13,764 nucleotides of DNA, from assembly GCA_947068385.1 (NCBI GenBank), contig CAMTBF010000037.1:1-13764 (forward strand), given 5' to 3'. Of the stretch, positions 4,557 through 13,764 are shown piece after piece (the stretch's first letter is position 1; the number at the start of each line of letters is the position of its first letter). The position numbers and the translations under genes are program-made. Origin of the DNA: an uncultured Lachnospiraceae bacterium. Lineage in GTDB: Bacteria; Bacillota; Clostridia; Lachnospirales; Lachnospiraceae. The notes below the pieces were generated by a model. It worked only from the letters and a program-made list of their open reading frames with translations, made no database searches and had not been told where the DNA came from.

Positions 4557-5411
4557 ATGGCGATAACGACAGGGAAGGTGAGGGCGAGCTACGTGCACAT
4601 ATTCCAGCCCCGCACCCCGGAGAACGGAGGGGAGCCGAAGTATTCCGTCACGCTGCTTATCCCGAAGACGGACACGGCGACCATCAACAGCATATACGCG
4701 GAGATAGAGAGGGCCAAGCAGGAAGGTGCGCAGAAGGCCTTCAACGGGAGCATCCCGCCACAGTGCAGGACGCCCATCTATGACGGCGACGGCTACCGCC
4801 CCTCCGGGGAGGCGTTCGGGGAGGAGTGCCGGGGATGCATGGTGATCACGGCATCGGCGAAGCAGCCGCCGGTCATCGTCGGGCTGGACATGCAGAACAT
4901 CCTGAACCCGGCGGACGTGTACAGCGGCTGTTACATCAGGGCGAACATCAACTTCTTCGCCTACAACAGCAACGGCAACAAAGGGATAGGCTGCGGGCTG
5001 AACGCGGTGCAGAAGGTAGGGGATGGGGAGCCGCTCGGCGGGCGCGTCAGCGCAGAAGAGGCCTTTGGCGGCGCGAACGCCTACACGGCTGCCGCAGGCT
5101 TCCAGCCGCCCATGCAGGGGCAGCAGAACATGGGGCAGGGCCAGTCGGCCTACGGCGGATACCAGCCGCCGCAGGGGAGCACGCAGGGCTACGGGGGCCA
5201 TCAGCCGCCCGTGCAGGGGCAGCCGCCGATGGGCCATGCGGGGTACGGAGGATACCAGCCGCCACAGGGGATTCCGCAGGGCTATGGAGGGTACCAGCCG
5301 CCGCAGGGAGGCCAGCAGCAGAACTATAACGGGTACCAGCCGCCCGCAGGGCAGACGGTAGACCCGATAACAGGCAGGCCCATGGCACCAGGAGGGGTGA
5401 TGGGGATATGA
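4557..5411 (+). CDS. DUF2815 phage single-stranded-DNA-binding protein
   Basis: This is a 284-residue protein. The ATG at 4557 (MAITTGKVRASYVHIFQPR, then GGEPKYSVTLLIPKTD) matches the usual start of DUF2815 proteins; AGGAGG is at 4541-4546, 10 nt upstream. A GTG at 4551 in frame is closer to the ribosome site and would add two residues. The OB-fold-like core covers about residues 1-160 (PVIVGLDMQNILNPADVYSG, then YIRANINFFAYNSNGNKGIG). The motif AEEAFGGANAY follows at 166-176. The rest (177-284) is a Gln/Pro/Gly-rich disordered tail with five repeats of YGGYQPP type. DUF2815 proteins replace the host SSB in many Firmicutes phages. It overlaps the DNA polymerase by ATGA, so the two are probably coupled. 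Confidence 0.9.
   Translation: MAITTGKVRASYVHIFQPRTPENGGEPKYSVTLLIPKTDTATINSIYAEIERAKQEGAQKAFNGSIPPQCRTPIYDGDGYRPSGEAFGEECRGCMVITASAKQPPVIVGLDMQNILNPADVYSGCYIRANINFFAYNSNGNKGIGCGLNAVQKVGDGEPLGGRVSAEEAFGGANAYTAAAGFQPPMQGQQNMGQGQSAYGGYQPPQGSTQGYGGHQPPVQGQPPMGHAGYGGYQPPQGIPQGYGGYQPPQGGQQQNYNGYQPPAGQTVDPITGRPMAPGGVMGI
5151..5351 (+). repeat. Repeat-coding tail of the ssDNA-binding protein
   Basis: Residues 199-265 of the DUF2815 protein contain five spaced copies of a Y-(G/N)-G-(Y/H)-Q-P-P unit: YGGYQPPQG, YGGHQPPVQG, YGGYQPPQG, YGGYQPPQG and YNGYQPPAG. Third-codon bases differ between copies, so the repeat looks kept at protein level rather than freshly duplicated. Confidence 0.85.
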
Positions 5412-7382: not shown

Positions 7383-9839
7383 ATGTATTACGACAAGCCA
7401 ATCAAGATATCGACCGGCGGCAGCCGGAAGGCGACCTCCTGGGTCGTGCAGGACACCTCCTGGTCGGCGTTCCTCGCGAGGCTCTCGCAGCCCGTCAGGA
7501 CGCCGGAGACGTTCCAGGAGTACAAGGCCCTGCCGAAGCCGAGGCAGGACGACCTGAAGGACGTGGGCGGCTTCGTAGGGGGCGTGCTGGCCGGGCCGCG
7601 GCGGAGGAAGGGCTCCGCAGGGGAGCGCTACCTGGTCACCCTGGACGCGGACTCCATAGGGCCCGGCGGCACCCAGGGCGTGCTGGATGCCGTGTCCGGC
7701 CTGGGCTGCGCCTATGCCGTCTACAGCACTAGGAAGCACGAGGGTGCGGCCCCAAGGCTGCGGGTGGTGGTGCCCTTGGACGAGCCCTGCACCGCGGAGG
7801 AGTACGAGCCGATTGCGCGGAAGCTGGCATCGTTCCTGGGCATACAGATGTTCGACCCGACCACCTTCGAGTCTGTCCGCCTGATGTACTGGCCCAGCTG
7901 CTCGGCGGACAGCGAGTTCGTCTTCCTGTACGGGGACAAGCCCTTCCTGTCGCGCTCCGGGATGCTGGGGCTGTACCGGGACTGGCGGAATGTAGCTGAA
8001 TGGCCGGAGGTGCCTGGAGCCGCAAAGATAAGGGACCGGTCCGCAAAGAAGCAGGGCGACCCGATGGAGAAGGGCGGCGTGGTGGGCGCGTTCTGCCGCT
8101 GCTACGGCATAGAGTCCGCCATGGAGCTGTTCATCCCTGGCACCTATGAGCCTTGCGTGGACGGGCGCTACACCTATACAGGCGGTTCCACGGTAGGAGG
8201 CGCTGTGCTCTATGATGATGGGAAGTTCATCTACAGCCACCATGCGACGGATCCCTGCAGCGGGAAGCTGTGCAATGCCTTCGACATGGTAAGGCTGCAT
8301 CTGTTCGGGGATGAAGACGCGGATGCAAAGCCGGACACCCCGGCAGGCAACCTGCCCTCTTTCCTGTCCATGTGCAAGTTCGCAGCGGCCCTGGAGCCTG
8401 TGGCGCAGGTGCTGAACCGGGAGCGGTATGAGAAAGCGGTACAGAGCTTCGATGCCCCTCTGGACACCACAGCGGAAAGGTTCGACTGGCTGGGGCAGTT
8501 GGCTACCCATCCGAAGACTGGGAAGCCGCTGCCGACGGTGGTGAATGTCCAGATCATCCTGGAGAATGACCCGCAGCTCAGGGGGAAGGTGTACCATGAC
8601 GACTTCAGCGACCGGCCCATGGTCTGCGACCGGCTCCCCTGGGAGAAGTTCGTCTTTGACGGCAGGCACCGTCTATGGAAGGATGCGGACGACTCCGGCC
8701 TGCGCGGCTACCTGGAGTCCCATTACGGGATATCCACCAAGAACAGCATCATGGACGGCTTCGCCGTATATGCCCTGAACCACAGGGTGAACCATCTCCT
8801 GGATTACTTGGCTGGCCTGCGCTGGGACGGCGTCCCGCGGGTGGACATGCTGCTGGTGGACTATTTCGGGGCAGACGACACCCCGTACACGAGAGAGGCC
8901 ATACGGAAGTGCCTGGTGGGGGCCGTGGCCAGGCTGCTGCACCCGGGGGTCAAGTTCGACCAGATGCTGATCCTGGCGGGCCCGCAGGGCATCGGAAAGA
9001 GCACCTTCTGGAGGATGCTGGGGATGAGGTGGTACACGGATTCCCTGTACACCTTCGAGGGCAAGGAGGCCGCTGAGCTGCTGCAGGGGTACTGGATCGT
9101 GGAGTGCGGCGAGCTGTCCGGGATGACGAGGTCCGAGATGAACACGGTGAAGCAGTTCATCAGCAAGTGCGAGGACACCTACAGGGCGGCGTATGGCCGC
9201 AGGACGGAGAATTATCCCAGGCGGTGCCTGCTGGTAGGGACCACCAACGAGAAGGAGTTCCTGAAAGATGAGACCGGTGGGCGGCGCTTCTGGCCCGTGG
9301 ACCTGGCGAGGCATCCGCCGAGGAAATCCGTGTTCCGGGACCTGCCGGAGGAGGTGCCGATGATTTGGGCGGAGGCCCTGCAGTTGTATAGGGACGGGGA
9401 GACCATGCTGCTGTCTGGGGCGGCGCAGGGCCAGGCCCAGGAAGCGCAGGAAGGGCACAGGGAGTCCGACCCCAATGAGGGGATTATAGCCGAGTTCCTG
9501 CAGAGGAAGGTGCCTGCAGGGTGGTACCAGAAGAGCCTGGCGGACAGGAGGAACTGGCTGGACAATACATTCAACCAGCAGCGGGAGGATGAGGGACAGA
9601 TGGTGTACCGGGACCGGATATGCGCGCTGGAGATATGGAACGAGTGCTTCCGGCAGTTCGCCCGCATGAAGAAGTCGGAGGCCAGGGAGATCAATGCCAC
9701 GCTCGGCAGGATGCCCGGATGGAAGCGGGCGGAGCGCGCGCTCCGGTTCGGAGGGGACTACGGGGTGCAGAGGGGATACATAAGGGACGTAACATGCCCC
9801 CTTTCCCCCGTAACAACTTCCAAAGAGAATGTAACATGA
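7383..9839 (+). CDS. VapE-type primase-helicase
   Basis: This is an 818-residue protein with two functional halves. The N-terminal part resembles an archaeo-eukaryotic-type primase: LVTLDADSI (D88, D90), YSTRKHEG (H119), PRLRVVVPLDE (R125-E134) and VRLMYWPS. The C-terminal part is a virulence-associated-E helicase/ATPase: Walker A GPQGIGKST (residues 533-541, K539), an acidic strand YWIVECGEL (E574, E577), and the typical FLKDETGGRRFWPVD segment with its arginines. It should prime and unwind at the phage origin. The ATG at 7383 has only a weak ribosome site (TGAGGG), so translation may depend on coupling to the polymerase gene ending 10 nt earlier. The last 17 codons (VTCPLSPVTTSKENVT) carry the first three GTAACA repeats of the array described separately. 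Confidence 0.92.
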   Translation: MYYDKPIKISTGGSRKATSWVVQDTSWSAFLARLSQPVRTPETFQEYKALPKPRQDDLKDVGGFVGGVLAGPRRRKGSAGERYLVTLDADSIGPGGTQGVLDAVSGLGCAYAVYSTRKHEGAAPRLRVVVPLDEPCTAEEYEPIARKLASFLGIQMFDPTTFESVRLMYWPSCSADSEFVFLYGDKPFLSRSGMLGLYRDWRNVAEWPEVPGAAKIRDRSAKKQGDPMEKGGVVGAFCRCYGIESAMELFIPGTYEPCVDGRYTYTGGSTVGGAVLYDDGKFIYSHHATDPCSGKLCNAFDMVRLHLFGDEDADAKPDTPAGNLPSFLSMCKFAAALEPVAQVLNRERYEKAVQSFDAPLDTTAERFDWLGQLATHPKTGKPLPTVVNVQIILENDPQLRGKVYHDDFSDRPMVCDRLPWEKFVFDGRHRLWKDADDSGLRGYLESHYGISTKNSIMDGFAVYALNHRVNHLLDYLAGLRWDGVPRVDMLLVDYFGADDTPYTREAIRKCLVGAVARLLHPGVKFDQMLILAGPQGIGKSTFWRMLGMRWYTDSLYTFEGKEAAELLQGYWIVECGELSGMTRSEMNTVKQFISKCEDTYRAAYGRRTENYPRRCLLVGTTNEKEFLKDETGGRRFWPVDLARHPPRKSVFRDLPEEVPMIWAEALQLYRDGETMLLSGAAQGQAQEAQEGHRESDPNEGIIAEFLQRKVPAGWYQKSLADRRNWLDNTFNQQREDEGQMVYRDRICALEIWNECFRQFARMKKSEAREINATLGRMPGWKRAERALRFGGDYGVQRGYIRDVTCPLSPVTTSKENVT

Positions 9840-9932
9840 AAGCGTAACATTCTGTAACATCGTAACAATCGAATGTTTCCGCTGGAACCATGATAGGCAC
9901 TGGCCCCATAGCATCCTGTAGCATTGTAACAT
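9789..9932 (+). repeat. GTAACAT direct-repeat (iteron-like) array, candidate origin or operator
   Basis: Eight same-strand copies: GTAACAT at 9789, 9831, 9844, 9854 and 9926, GTAACAA at 9810 and 9862, and GTAGCAT at 9918. Start-to-start spacings are 21, 21, 13, 10, 8, 56 and 8 nt, several near one or two helical turns. The inverse TGTTAC is absent. The array begins inside the 3' end of the primase-helicase gene and extends into the gap before the nuclease gene. Directly repeated sites beside an AT-rich stretch are the usual make-up of iteron origins. Binding by the phage initiator is inferred. Confidence 0.75.
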
Positions 9933-9953
9933 TCTTTTCTATATAGATAATAT
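9924..9953 (+). promoter_or_regulatory. Possible promoter overlapping the last repeat
   Basis: TTGTAA (9924-9929) and TAATAT (9948-9953) are 18 nt apart. The -35 overlaps the last GTAACAT copy, so a protein binding the repeats could control the downstream nuclease/helicase genes. The area is AT-rich, so a chance match is quite possible. Confidence 0.35.
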
Positions 9954-10010
9954 ATAAAGGGAAATAAGGGATACATATACCCCTGATACCCTTGATTTAT
10001 AAAAACAATA
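9933..10010. other. AT-rich island in GC-rich surroundings (candidate unwinding element)
   Basis: The gap 9840-10088 holds no recognisable gene. Its central part, from CTATATAGATAATATATAAA to TTTATAAAAACAATA, is strongly AT-rich while both flanking genes are GC-rich. It follows directly on the repeat array, the place where strand opening occurs in iteron-type origins. Function is inferred. Confidence 0.55.
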
Positions 10011-10021
10011 CGCATGCGTAT
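10008..10021. repeat. 14-nt perfect palindrome
   Basis: ATACGCATGCGTAT is fully self-complementary. It lies at the right edge of the AT-rich island, 68 nt before the chosen start of the nuclease gene. It could be an operator or part of the origin. Confidence 0.6.
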
Positions 10022-10088
10022 GTGCGCGGGAAATGATACAGGGGCAGGAGAGATACGGGAGGCAGGGGGAGAGATGGAGGAAAAAGGG

Positions 10089-10421
10089 ATGAAGGAAAAA
10101 GAGATCGAGAGGTATCTGGTGGACAGGGTAGCTGCGATGGGGGGCATGGCGTTCAAATTCGTCTCCCCCGGATGCACGGGGGCGCCCGACAGGCTGGTGG
10201 TCCTGCCGGAAGGGAAGGTCGGCTTCCTGGAGCTGAAAGCCCCGGGAATGAAGCCCCGGAAAGAACAGGTACACCGGATCAGGCAGCTGTGGGCCCTGGG
10301 GTGCTGTGCGGATGTCGCGGACTCCAGGGAAGCGGTGGACCTGTACCTGGCGGGCCTGTCAACGGGAGTCCCAGTGCCGGCCAGGATGCCCCGGATGCTG
10401 GAAACGGAGGCGCGCCGATGA
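10089..10421 (+). CDS. VRR-NUC domain nuclease
   Basis: This is a 110-residue protein made almost entirely of a VRR-NUC domain: KEKEIERYLVDRVAAMGG, FVSPGCTGAPDRLVVLP (D34) and VGFLELKAPGMKP (E48-x-K50), then EQVHRIRQLWALG. D34, E48 and K50 match the metal-binding PD-(D/E)XK core. The ATG at 10089 is chosen because GGAGG lies 8 nt upstream (10076-10080). In-frame ATGs at 10074 and 10014 have weaker or no ribosome sites; the 10014 ATG lies within the palindrome. Stand-alone VRR-NUC proteins are structure-specific DNA nucleases common in phages, usually next to an SNF2-type helicase, as here. The stop overlaps the helicase start by ATGA. A likely role is resolving branched replication or recombination intermediates. 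Confidence 0.9.
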   Translation: MKEKEIERYLVDRVAAMGGMAFKFVSPGCTGAPDRLVVLPEGKVGFLELKAPGMKPRKEQVHRIRQLWALGCCADVADSREAVDLYLAGLSTGVPVPARMPRMLETEARR

Positions 10422-11800
10422 TATTCAGGCCGCACGGCTACCAGAGGTACTGCATCCAGCGGATGCTGCAGGAGCCGGCTCTGGCGCTGTTCCTGGGCAT
10501 GGGCCTCGGCAAGACCGTCACCACGCTGACGGTGCTGAACGACCTGAAGTACAACCGCTTCCAGATGCGGAAGTGCCTGGTCATAGCCCCTAAGAAGGTG
10601 GCGGAGGACACCTGGACGCGGGAGCAGGCGAAGTGGGAGCACCTGCGGCTCCTGAAGGTGGTGCCGGTGCTGGGCAGCCTGCAGAAGCGGATCCGGGCAC
10701 TGGCGTCGCCGGGGGACGTGTACGTGGTCAACCGGGAGAACGTGGCATGGCTGGTGGACCATTACCGGAACGACTGGCCTTTCGACACGGTGGTGATAGA
10801 CGAGTCCAGCAGTTTCAAGAGCCACCAGGCGAAGCGGTTCAAGGCCCTGCGGAGCATCCGAGGGCACATCAGCCGCCTGTACGAGCTGACCGGCACACCG
10901 GCAGCCAACGGCTATATGGACCTATGGGCACAGGTCTACCTGCTGGACGGGGGGAGGCGGCTGGGACGGACCATAACGGAGTATCGGAACCAGTACTTCA
11001 TCCCAGGCAGCCGGAACGCCACCACGGTGTTCAGCTACGAGCCCCGGGACGGCGCACAGGGGCAGATACAGGAGAGAATCAGGGACATATGCATCAGCCT
11101 CTCCGCGGAGGACTACCTGGAGCTGCCGGAGCGCATGGACAGCACACGGTACGTGAGGCTGGACGCGAAGGCCCAGAAGGCCTATGACGAGATGGAGCGG
11201 CAGAGGATTCTGGAGTTCGGGGACACGGTGCTGGACGCAGGGAGCGCGGCGGTGCTGACGAACAAGCTGCTGCAGCTGGGGAACGGGGCCATGTACAGCG
11301 AGGGGGAGGACGGCAGGCGCAGGGTGGTCGAGATCCACGGCAACAAGGTGGAGGCCTTCATGGAGCTGGTGGAGGAACTGAACGGGAAGCCCGCGCTGGT
11401 GTTCTACAATTTCCAGCACGACCTGGAGCGCCTGGAGCGGGCGCTGCGGAGGACGGGGCTGAGGGTCAGGCGCCTGGAGGGCAGCCGGGACATAGAGGAC
11501 TGGAACGGCCACCGCGTGGACATCCTCCTGGCGCATCCCGCGAGCGTGGCTTACGGCCTGAACCTGCAGCAGGGCGGCAGCGACGTGGTGTGGTTCGGGC
11601 TGAACTGGAGCCTGGAGCTCTACCAGCAGGCGAACGCCAGGCTCCACAGGCAGGGACAGGAACATACCGTGTTCGTCCACCATCTGGTGGTTGCGGGGAG
11701 CGTGGACGAGGACGTCATGGCGGCGCTGGGCAGGAAGGGAGACTGCCAGGCAGAACTGCTGGAGGCCCTGAAGGCCCGGGTGGACAGGATTCGAGGGTGA
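10418..11800 (+). CDS. SNF2/superfamily-2 DNA helicase
   Basis: This is a 460-residue protein. The ATG at 10418 within the ATGA overlap gives MIFRPHGYQRYCIQRML, a typical start (Q-motif-like HGYQ). Motif I is GMGLGKTVT (K32), motif II VIDESSSFK (D128, E129; DESS instead of DEAH), motif III LTGTPAANGYMDLW (158-170), then in the second RecA-like domain LVFYNF, HPASVAYGLNLQ and motif VI QANARLHRQGQ (404-414, R408 and R411 being the arginine fingers). Small phage SNF2 proteins of this length translocate on double-stranded DNA. Pairing with the VRR-NUC nuclease suggests processing of DNA ends or forks, perhaps of host DNA. No extra DNA-recognition domain is visible. Confidence 0.93.
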   Translation: MIFRPHGYQRYCIQRMLQEPALALFLGMGLGKTVTTLTVLNDLKYNRFQMRKCLVIAPKKVAEDTWTREQAKWEHLRLLKVVPVLGSLQKRIRALASPGDVYVVNRENVAWLVDHYRNDWPFDTVVIDESSSFKSHQAKRFKALRSIRGHISRLYELTGTPAANGYMDLWAQVYLLDGGRRLGRTITEYRNQYFIPGSRNATTVFSYEPRDGAQGQIQERIRDICISLSAEDYLELPERMDSTRYVRLDAKAQKAYDEMERQRILEFGDTVLDAGSAAVLTNKLLQLGNGAMYSEGEDGRRRVVEIHGNKVEAFMELVEELNGKPALVFYNFQHDLERLERALRRTGLRVRRLEGSRDIEDWNGHRVDILLAHPASVAYGLNLQQGGSDVVWFGLNWSLELYQQANARLHRQGQEHTVFVHHLVVAGSVDEDVMAALGRKGDCQAELLEALKARVDRIRG

Positions 11801-13465: not shown

Positions 13466-13764
13466 ATGCACAGAACATTGAAGTATTCAGGGAGCAAGTG
13501 GAACATAGCGAAAAAGCTGGTGGAGCTGATTCCGCCTCACCACAGCTACGTGGAGCCCTATTTCGGGAGCGGGGCCGTGCTGTTCAGCAAGGAGCCCTCG
13601 CACATCGAGACAATCAATGACCTGGACAGCGATGTCGTCAACCTGTTCAGGTGCATCCGGGAGGATCCGGAGCAGCTCGCACGGATTGTCATGACGACCC
13701 CATACAGCAGGGAGGCATATGAGGGCGCATTCATGACCGTGCCGTTCATGGGGATACCTTCAGG
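13466..13764 (+). CDS. Dam-family N6-adenine DNA methylase, 5' part only
   Basis: An ATG at 13466, with AAAGGA at 13453-13458, starts a frame of 99 codons that runs off the window. The start MHRTLKYSGSKWNIAKKLVE has the YxGxK element of D12-class methylases (Y7, G9, K11). It is followed by YVEPYFGSGAVLF (residues 28-40), the FxGxG S-adenosylmethionine site, and INDLDSDVVNLF (50-61), the acidic motif after it. The catalytic DPPY motif is beyond the window. Phage enzymes of this class methylate adenine in short sites and may protect phage DNA from restriction or mark replicated DNA. Only 3 nt separate it from the gene before. Confidence 0.9.
   Translation, partial: MHRTLKYSGSKWNIAKKLVELIPPHHSYVEPYFGSGAVLFSKEPSHIETINDLDSDVVNLFRCIREDPEQLARIVMTTPYSREAYEGAFMTVPFMGIPS

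Follow-up and report, generated by a model that had tools for sequence, protein, structure and literature searches.

The window analysed here is contig CAMTBF010000037.1 of an uncultured Lachnospiraceae bacterium, taken over its full length of 13,764 nucleotides. It is an entire contig of a draft bacterial genome (3.78 Mb, 581 contigs) and therefore represents a prophage or phage fragment. Our subject is the probable replication origin of a gut phage, an array of short repeats at the 3' end of a gene for a VapE-type primase-helicase. The array is followed by an AT-rich stretch and by genes for a VRR-NUC-type nuclease and a SNF2-family helicase (Table 1). Genes for a single-stranded DNA-binding protein (SSB) and PolA lie upstream of the primase-helicase (PHROG/Pfam matches), and the gene set around the array is a phage replication module.

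Table 1. Features of the primase-helicase locus, in coordinates of the window.
Feature	Coordinates	Strand	Basis or remark
VapE-type primase-helicase gene (818 aa), proposed initiator	7383..9839	+	Pfam PF05272, E 2.2e-78
C-terminal winged-helix domain (residues 691-818), proposed iteron reader	9453..9836	+	predicted fold
Codon A786, wing	9738..9740	+	rank 1/661 columns for the base directly before the AC core
Codon V795, wing	9765..9767	+	rank 1 for unit columns 3, 4, 4+5 and 3-5
Codon R797, wing	9771..9773	+	rank 1/664; after AC, R is paired with A and K with T or C
GTAACA copy 1	9789..9794	+	inside primase-helicase frame; no concerted change in L003
GTAACA copy 2	9810..9815	+	inside primase-helicase frame; no concerted change in L003
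GTAACA copy 3	9831..9836	+	inside frame; L019 and L028 carry GAATGTTACA, which is GTAACATTC on the opposite strand
GTAACA copy 4	9844..9849	+	GTTACA in L003
GTAACA copy 5	9854..9859	+	GTTACA in L003
GTAACA copy 6	9862..9867	+	GTTACA in L003
Degenerate copy GGAAACATTC	9871..9880	-	in the 56-nt gap; 2 mismatches to TGTAACATTC
GTAGCA, first of tandem pair next to AT-rich stretch	9918..9923	+	GTTACA in L003
GTAACA copy 7, other member of the tandem pair, offset by 8 nt	9926..9931	+	GTTACA in L003
AT-rich stretch, proposed unwinding element	9932..9971		AT 0.78, against 0.39 for the window
21-nt alternating purine-pyrimidine run	10008..10028		direct reading of the sequence
Degenerate inverted copy TGTATCATTT	10031..10040	-	beyond the AT-rich stretch; 2 mismatches to TGTAACATTC
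VRR-NUC-type nuclease gene, adjoining the array (start codon inferred)	10074..10421	+	PHROG 93
SNF2-family helicase gene	10418..11800	+	Pfam PF00176, E 9.5e-21

A direct count confirmed the seven GTAACA hexamers and the single GTAGCA described in the initial annotation, all on the + strand within 9789-9931, along with their start-to-start spacings of 21, 21, 13, 10, 8, 56 and 8 nt. Equal density of GTAACA elsewhere, which that annotation had named as grounds for doubt, was not seen within the contig: just one of the 8 copies in the window lies outside the array (4929, - strand), and in 200 dinucleotide shuffles of the window the count averaged 2.10 with a maximum of 7, none of the 200 reaching 8. 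For the remainder of the window the expectation is about 1.1 sites with three or fewer mismatches to TGTAACATTC in every 400 nt, so neither of the two degenerate copies is significant alone. The array spans the stop codon of the primase-helicase (9837-9839), with the copies at 9789, 9810 and 9831 inside the reading frame and the rest beyond it. Three copies encode VT dipeptides in a 17-residue tail, as would suit repeats that bind nothing and arise as a side effect of coding or through simple repeat expansion. The probability of such an explanation is close to negligible, since the array does not end at the stop codon, both strands carry copies, and the way the repeats are spelled follows wing residues across diverged relatives, as set out below.

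The primase-helicase matched PHROG 256 (DNA helicase, E 1.3e-303) and, across residues 2-422, PHROG 9765 (DNA primase). Over residues 367-803 it matched PriRep1 in PDB entry 7pds (E 5.4e-83), a structure solved with double-stranded DNA; the homology includes the C-terminal winged helix, and we take this PriRep1 to come from a Staphylococcus aureus pathogenicity island (SaPI). The Foldseek and VIA lists held no strong fold match besides 7pds, and the lack of P4 alpha in these lists proves nothing.

Of 50,697 phage records, 339 contain a relative of the primase-helicase at E 1e-60 or better; phages of Bacteroides, Staphylococcus and Streptococcus are the most frequent, and such relatives are often annotated as virulence-associated protein E. 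Loci were gathered from initial scans with the primase-helicase protein (16 viral and 12 genome loci), followed by 19 named phage loci and five alignment-based viral scans. Of the 127 loci listed, 117 (the window among them) made up the first set once exact duplicates and two loci with an early stop, L016 and L090, had been dropped; L042 was excluded from counts as its vapE gene is only partly annotated. Together with L434, these three carry vapE copies with an early stop or partial annotation, which were left unmended. The held-out set consisted of 121 representatives less than 90% identical to the first set.

Conservation in place was assessed blindly by seeking, anywhere in each locus, the 350-nt stretch that carries the most-repeated 7-mer. 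In the first set (n=116, one locus with under 350 nt downstream being excluded) this stretch lay exclusively at the 3' end of the gene in 101 loci, and in 111/116 when ties were admitted, against 10.7% expected by area. The held-out set gave 104/121 exclusively and 111/121 with ties (11.3% expected). The exclusive counts are the ones relied on, because the tie count admits L036 and L037, which have no array. Among the 19 named phage loci the array was judged clear in 14, and clear arrays occur in phages of Paenibacillus, Fusobacterium, Listeria, Enterococcus, Clostridioides, Staphylococcus, Acutalibacter, Streptococcus, Corynebacterium and Bacteroides. Eight named relatives with an array are deposits of complete phage genomes of 38-86 kb. 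Absence of the repeats from relatives had been a second ground for doubt in the initial annotation; the array proved to be kept in place, its sequence shifting with C-terminal residues of the primase-helicase.

One unit dominates each array and differs among phages (GTAACA, GTTACA, GTAAACA, GTCAACA, GGCAACA and others), with 55 distinct unit 6-mers across 205 loci. Most units consist of three variable bases, AC and one further variable base, although the near-invariance of AC is not independent evidence because the alignment method fixes it. Across 204 loci, copies lie mostly between the stop codon and +180, the AT-richest 40 nt have their median at +133, and the longest alternating purine-pyrimidine run lies near +212. 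In 164/205 loci a direct pair 8-9 nt apart lies 60 to 200 nt beyond the stop codon. Far-side copies, at +195 or beyond, were found in 115/204 loci, and where copies stood both there and at +85 to +185 (106 loci) they were on opposite strands in 79.

The alternating run, of which ATACGCATGCGTATGTGCGCG is an example, separates the AT-rich stretch from the far-side repeat in relatives as well, and was longer than in all 19 shuffles in 127/208 loci. The AT-rich stretch of the window also contains an inverted repeat (9957-9993), which is of an AAGGG...CCCTT type in the window's relatives; the AT-rich stretches of other loci, e.g. L035, L318 and L127, hold inverted repeats of quite different sequence. 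Such inverted repeats are modestly enriched, 85/208 loci beating six shuffles where 30 were expected. In an Rfam scan of 9000-10700 the best match had E 0.17 and fell far below the gathering score.

A natural experiment is provided by L003, whose protein is 90% identical to the primase-helicase of the window. In an alignment with L019, L028 and the window, L003 read GTTACA at five sites that read GTAACA in L028, with GTAGCA at one of these five sites each in L019 and the window. A sixth site, on the opposite strand, shifts likewise between L003 and L019 or L028, and the two outermost in-gene copies have not changed alongside the others. TGTAACA is also GTTACA read on the other strand, and the flank alone separates GTA from GTT units. 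Counted in flanked form, GTTACATT prevails by 7 to 3 in L003, and GTAACATT prevails by 6 to 0 in L019, by 5 to 0 in L028 and by 2 to 1 in the window. Within residues 690-802, just five substitutions set L003 apart from the other three proteins: I701L, S718G, G775D, A786P and V795L.

Unit letters were called from the DNA alone and then set against each of the variable columns in 111 primase-helicase sequences (661-664 columns; one short protein and L036, L037, L046, L049 and L114, which lack a clear unit, were excluded). The first-ranking columns are those of the three wing residues in Table 1, V795 being second to A786 for the base directly before AC. R797 occurred with A after AC in 68/76 cases and K797 with T or C in 29/31. 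An earlier run with a grouped alphabet, in which K and R were merged, obscured residue 797: mutual information for the base after AC showed no enrichment of C-terminal columns (5/25 top columns, p=0.39). The same run gave little C-terminal enrichment for column 4 (6/25, p=0.21) and enrichment for columns 3 and 5 (9/25 and 14/25). The full-alphabet run followed a pattern spotted by eye, and tests on held-out loci and on pairs of relatives were therefore made.

Rules were recorded from the first set before the held-out test, in which the 98 loci with a callable array were used. R797 was accompanied by A in 58/66 and K797 by another base in 25/29 (Fisher p=3.7e-12). The 797 counts exclude rows without a called base after AC (1/111 in the first set, 2/98 held-out) and rows with a residue other than R or K (3/111 and 1/98). 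For residue 795, P was found with GTA in 4/4, L with T before AC in 11/15, T with TAA in 7/18, R with TCA in 4/8 and N with CT in 2/2. Where GTA or GTT precedes AC, V795 has GTA in 26/26 and L795 has GTT in 11/16 (p=1e-6). A look-up by residue 797 predicted 84/96 held-out bases, compared with 75 for the nearest neighbour, a predictor that uses the rest of the protein, and 62 for the majority base.

Kinship was controlled with 91 disjoint pairs of close relatives (median identity 0.80 across residues 1-690). A change at V795 follows a change in the three bases before AC with p=1.4e-8, the next of 643 columns reaching 1.4e-3, and R797 came first for the base after AC (p=1.4e-5). In the held-out set alone (45 pairs) the values were p=3e-4 for 795 and p=2e-3 for 797. 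The correlation between wing and repeat is real, strong for 797 and partial for 795. The wing of the primase-helicase covaries with the iterons and therefore indicates the likely reader and suggests a code.

We consider the array to be a (pro)phage replication origin in which the C-terminal winged helix of VapE binds the repeats as iterons and its wing sets their spelling, a reading to which we assign a probability of roughly 90%. It is based on the array itself, its position, its conservation, the covariation, the homology and the predicted fold. An origin bound by the primase-helicase, as the initial annotation had proposed, is the reading best supported by the conserved place of the array and a unit that covaries with C-terminal residues. 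In the proposed mechanism, the winged-helix domain, encoded directly upstream of the array and partly overlapping it, would physically bind the repeats, and copies flanking the AT-rich stretch would position helicase rings there. The stretch would then melt and the origin become active, the same primase-helicase unwinding and priming. The wing would pick the spelling through putative base contacts, 795 (with 786) accounting for the two to three bases before AC and 797 for the base after it, so that protein and repeats would change together.

Several observations weigh against this reading. The window is itself one of the 5 full misses of the blind test, with CAGCCGC (7 copies from about 5001) outscoring its own array, and its sole far-side copy is degenerate. 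Among the named phage loci, no gene-end array was found in L036, L037 or L046, and the array is weak in L038 and L049; it is also weak in L114, and 23/121 held-out loci fell below the unit threshold. Of the 20 columns that rank highest for the base after AC in the 111 sequences, 17 fall outside the winged-helix domain. V795 occurred with GTA in 12/22 held-out loci, compared with 14/16 in the first set, and a look-up by residue 795 predicted 37/98 held-out trinucleotides (nearest neighbour 20, majority 21). Taken column by column in the close pairs, V795 ranked third at column 5 and eighth at column 4 and did not reach the top ten at column 3. In the same test, residues G442 (2.3e-5) and R411 (5.7e-5) came near R797 for the base after AC.

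The close scores of G442, R411 and R797 in that test, and the fact that modules travel together, would suit another reader of the repeats within the module (the VRR-NUC, SNF2 or SSB protein, or a small helix-turn-helix protein), with the wing covarying by linkage only. We regard such a reader as very improbable. In the close pairs no other column comes near V795 for the trinucleotide before AC (1.4e-8 vs 1.4e-3), V795 lies within the domain that extracts from the literature report to bind iterons in related helicases, and VapE-only elements with different neighbours carry such arrays too. The arrayless L036, L037 and L046 belong to Croceibacter and Bacteroides phages with the same helicase family, no dense array being evident in the stretches examined; in L036 and L037 the next gene starts directly at the stop codon.

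The array sits directly upstream of the VRR-NUC gene, and initiators often double as local repressors. It might thus be mainly an operator through which the primase-helicase or a phage regulator controls the downstream VRR-NUC and SNF2 genes. We consider this unlikely, because the unit tracks the C-terminus of the primase-helicase, the AT-rich stretch and inverted far-side copies resemble an origin, and relatives of the protein are reported, in extracts from the literature, as origin binders. A second role as an operator beside that of origin may exist.

The nuclease gene matched PHROG 93 (endonuclease) with E 2.2e-29 when a longer open reading frame from 10014 was used; it had no Pfam match in the scan, and the VRR-NUC label is taken from the annotation of relatives. 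No Rep_3 initiator was matched by Pfam among the 8 window proteins scanned, a set that does not include every open reading frame. The CAGCCGC repeats (5001-5350), the top-repeated 7-mer stretch of the window, belong to the Q/P/G-rich part of the gene for an Enc34-type SSB. At 13466-13762 lies the start of a gene for a D12-class adenine methyltransferase (PF02086, E 1.1e-13), which runs off the contig.

Downstream arrays also follow VapE relatives in genomes of the same genus and in plasmid records. In this wider set residue 797 was assigned by eye. Loci with R797 had A after AC in 6/6 (L435), 8/9 (L449) and 7/8 (L450), and A was merely the commonest base, with G second, in L439 (5/10) and L440 (4/8). 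With K797, C followed AC in 8/9 (L445) and 8/8 (L451), two loci that are near copies of one another, and was merely the commonest in L441 (5/10). A 14-kb S. aureus element (L448) has GGGACAA repeats and does not test the 797 rule because it has Y at that position. L439, L440, L441, L445 and L451 are VapE-only Clostridia elements, apparently plasmid- or ICE-like (integrative and conjugative element), with iterons after vapE; in L439 and L440 a gene that looks ParM-like by eye comes next.

On balance we lean towards the view that VapE initiators carry a compact recognition code in the wing, and that phages, by exchanging one or two residues of the wing and rewriting the array alongside, shift to new, presumably mutually incompatible origins. 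The same code would then serve phages, plasmid-like elements and SaPI-type satellites. As we read it, residues 795/786 would most often go with GTA (V or P), T before AC (L), TCA (R), TAA (T), CT (N) and GCA or GGA (K), and residue 797 would go with the base after AC, A for R and T or C for K.

Related arrangements are known in other replicons. The alpha protein of the satellite phage P4 combines primase, helicase and origin recognition and has a C-terminal winged helix. Iteron plasmids (RepA/RepE, Rep_3) and lambda O use short direct repeats beside an AT-rich unwinding element, and their initiators are unrelated to VapE and lack helicase or primase domains. The iterons of our locus lie immediately 3' of the initiator gene, and the initiator is homologous to SaPI Rep/PriRep, C-terminal domain included. 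Extracts from PMC7581432 state that SaPI Reps bind iterons just downstream of rep via the C-terminal domain, and those from PMC6092414 that origins of phage-inducible chromosomal islands (PICIs) have two sets of iterons around an AT-rich region, 3' of rep. Our locus resembles these replicons in a helicase gene that is immediately followed by its iterons, and may also resemble them in an AT-rich region that separates two iteron sets. Unlike SaPIs and PICIs, the loci described here belong to phage genomes that also have genes for PolA, SSB, VRR-NUC and SNF2 proteins, the helicase has a primase part at its N-terminus, the far-side set is often a single copy, and an alternating purine-pyrimidine run lies in between. 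The isolated C-terminal domain of Cch2 from the staphylococcal cassette chromosome mec (SCCmec) is likewise described as binding its putative origin, direct repeats downstream of the gene; Cch2 differs in being a Primase_Cterm/D5-type helicase with three AAGTG iterons, and no code is mentioned in the extracts that describe it (PMC7581432). Among the open-licence papers that our searches returned, judged by title and opening of the abstract, none dealt with VapE-phage origins or with such a code. The array is probably best classed as an origin of the SaPI/PICI type that occurs in whole phages and whose recognition code can be read in part.

A likely origin can thus be indicated from sequence alone in most loci examined. 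A layout called unique to satellites in an extract from a PICI paper occurs in whole phages, which bears on the source of satellite replicons. The correspondence between residue and base would supply many natural allele pairs for the study of initiator-origin co-evolution, and the same pairs may show how prophages that share a host keep from firing one another's origins.
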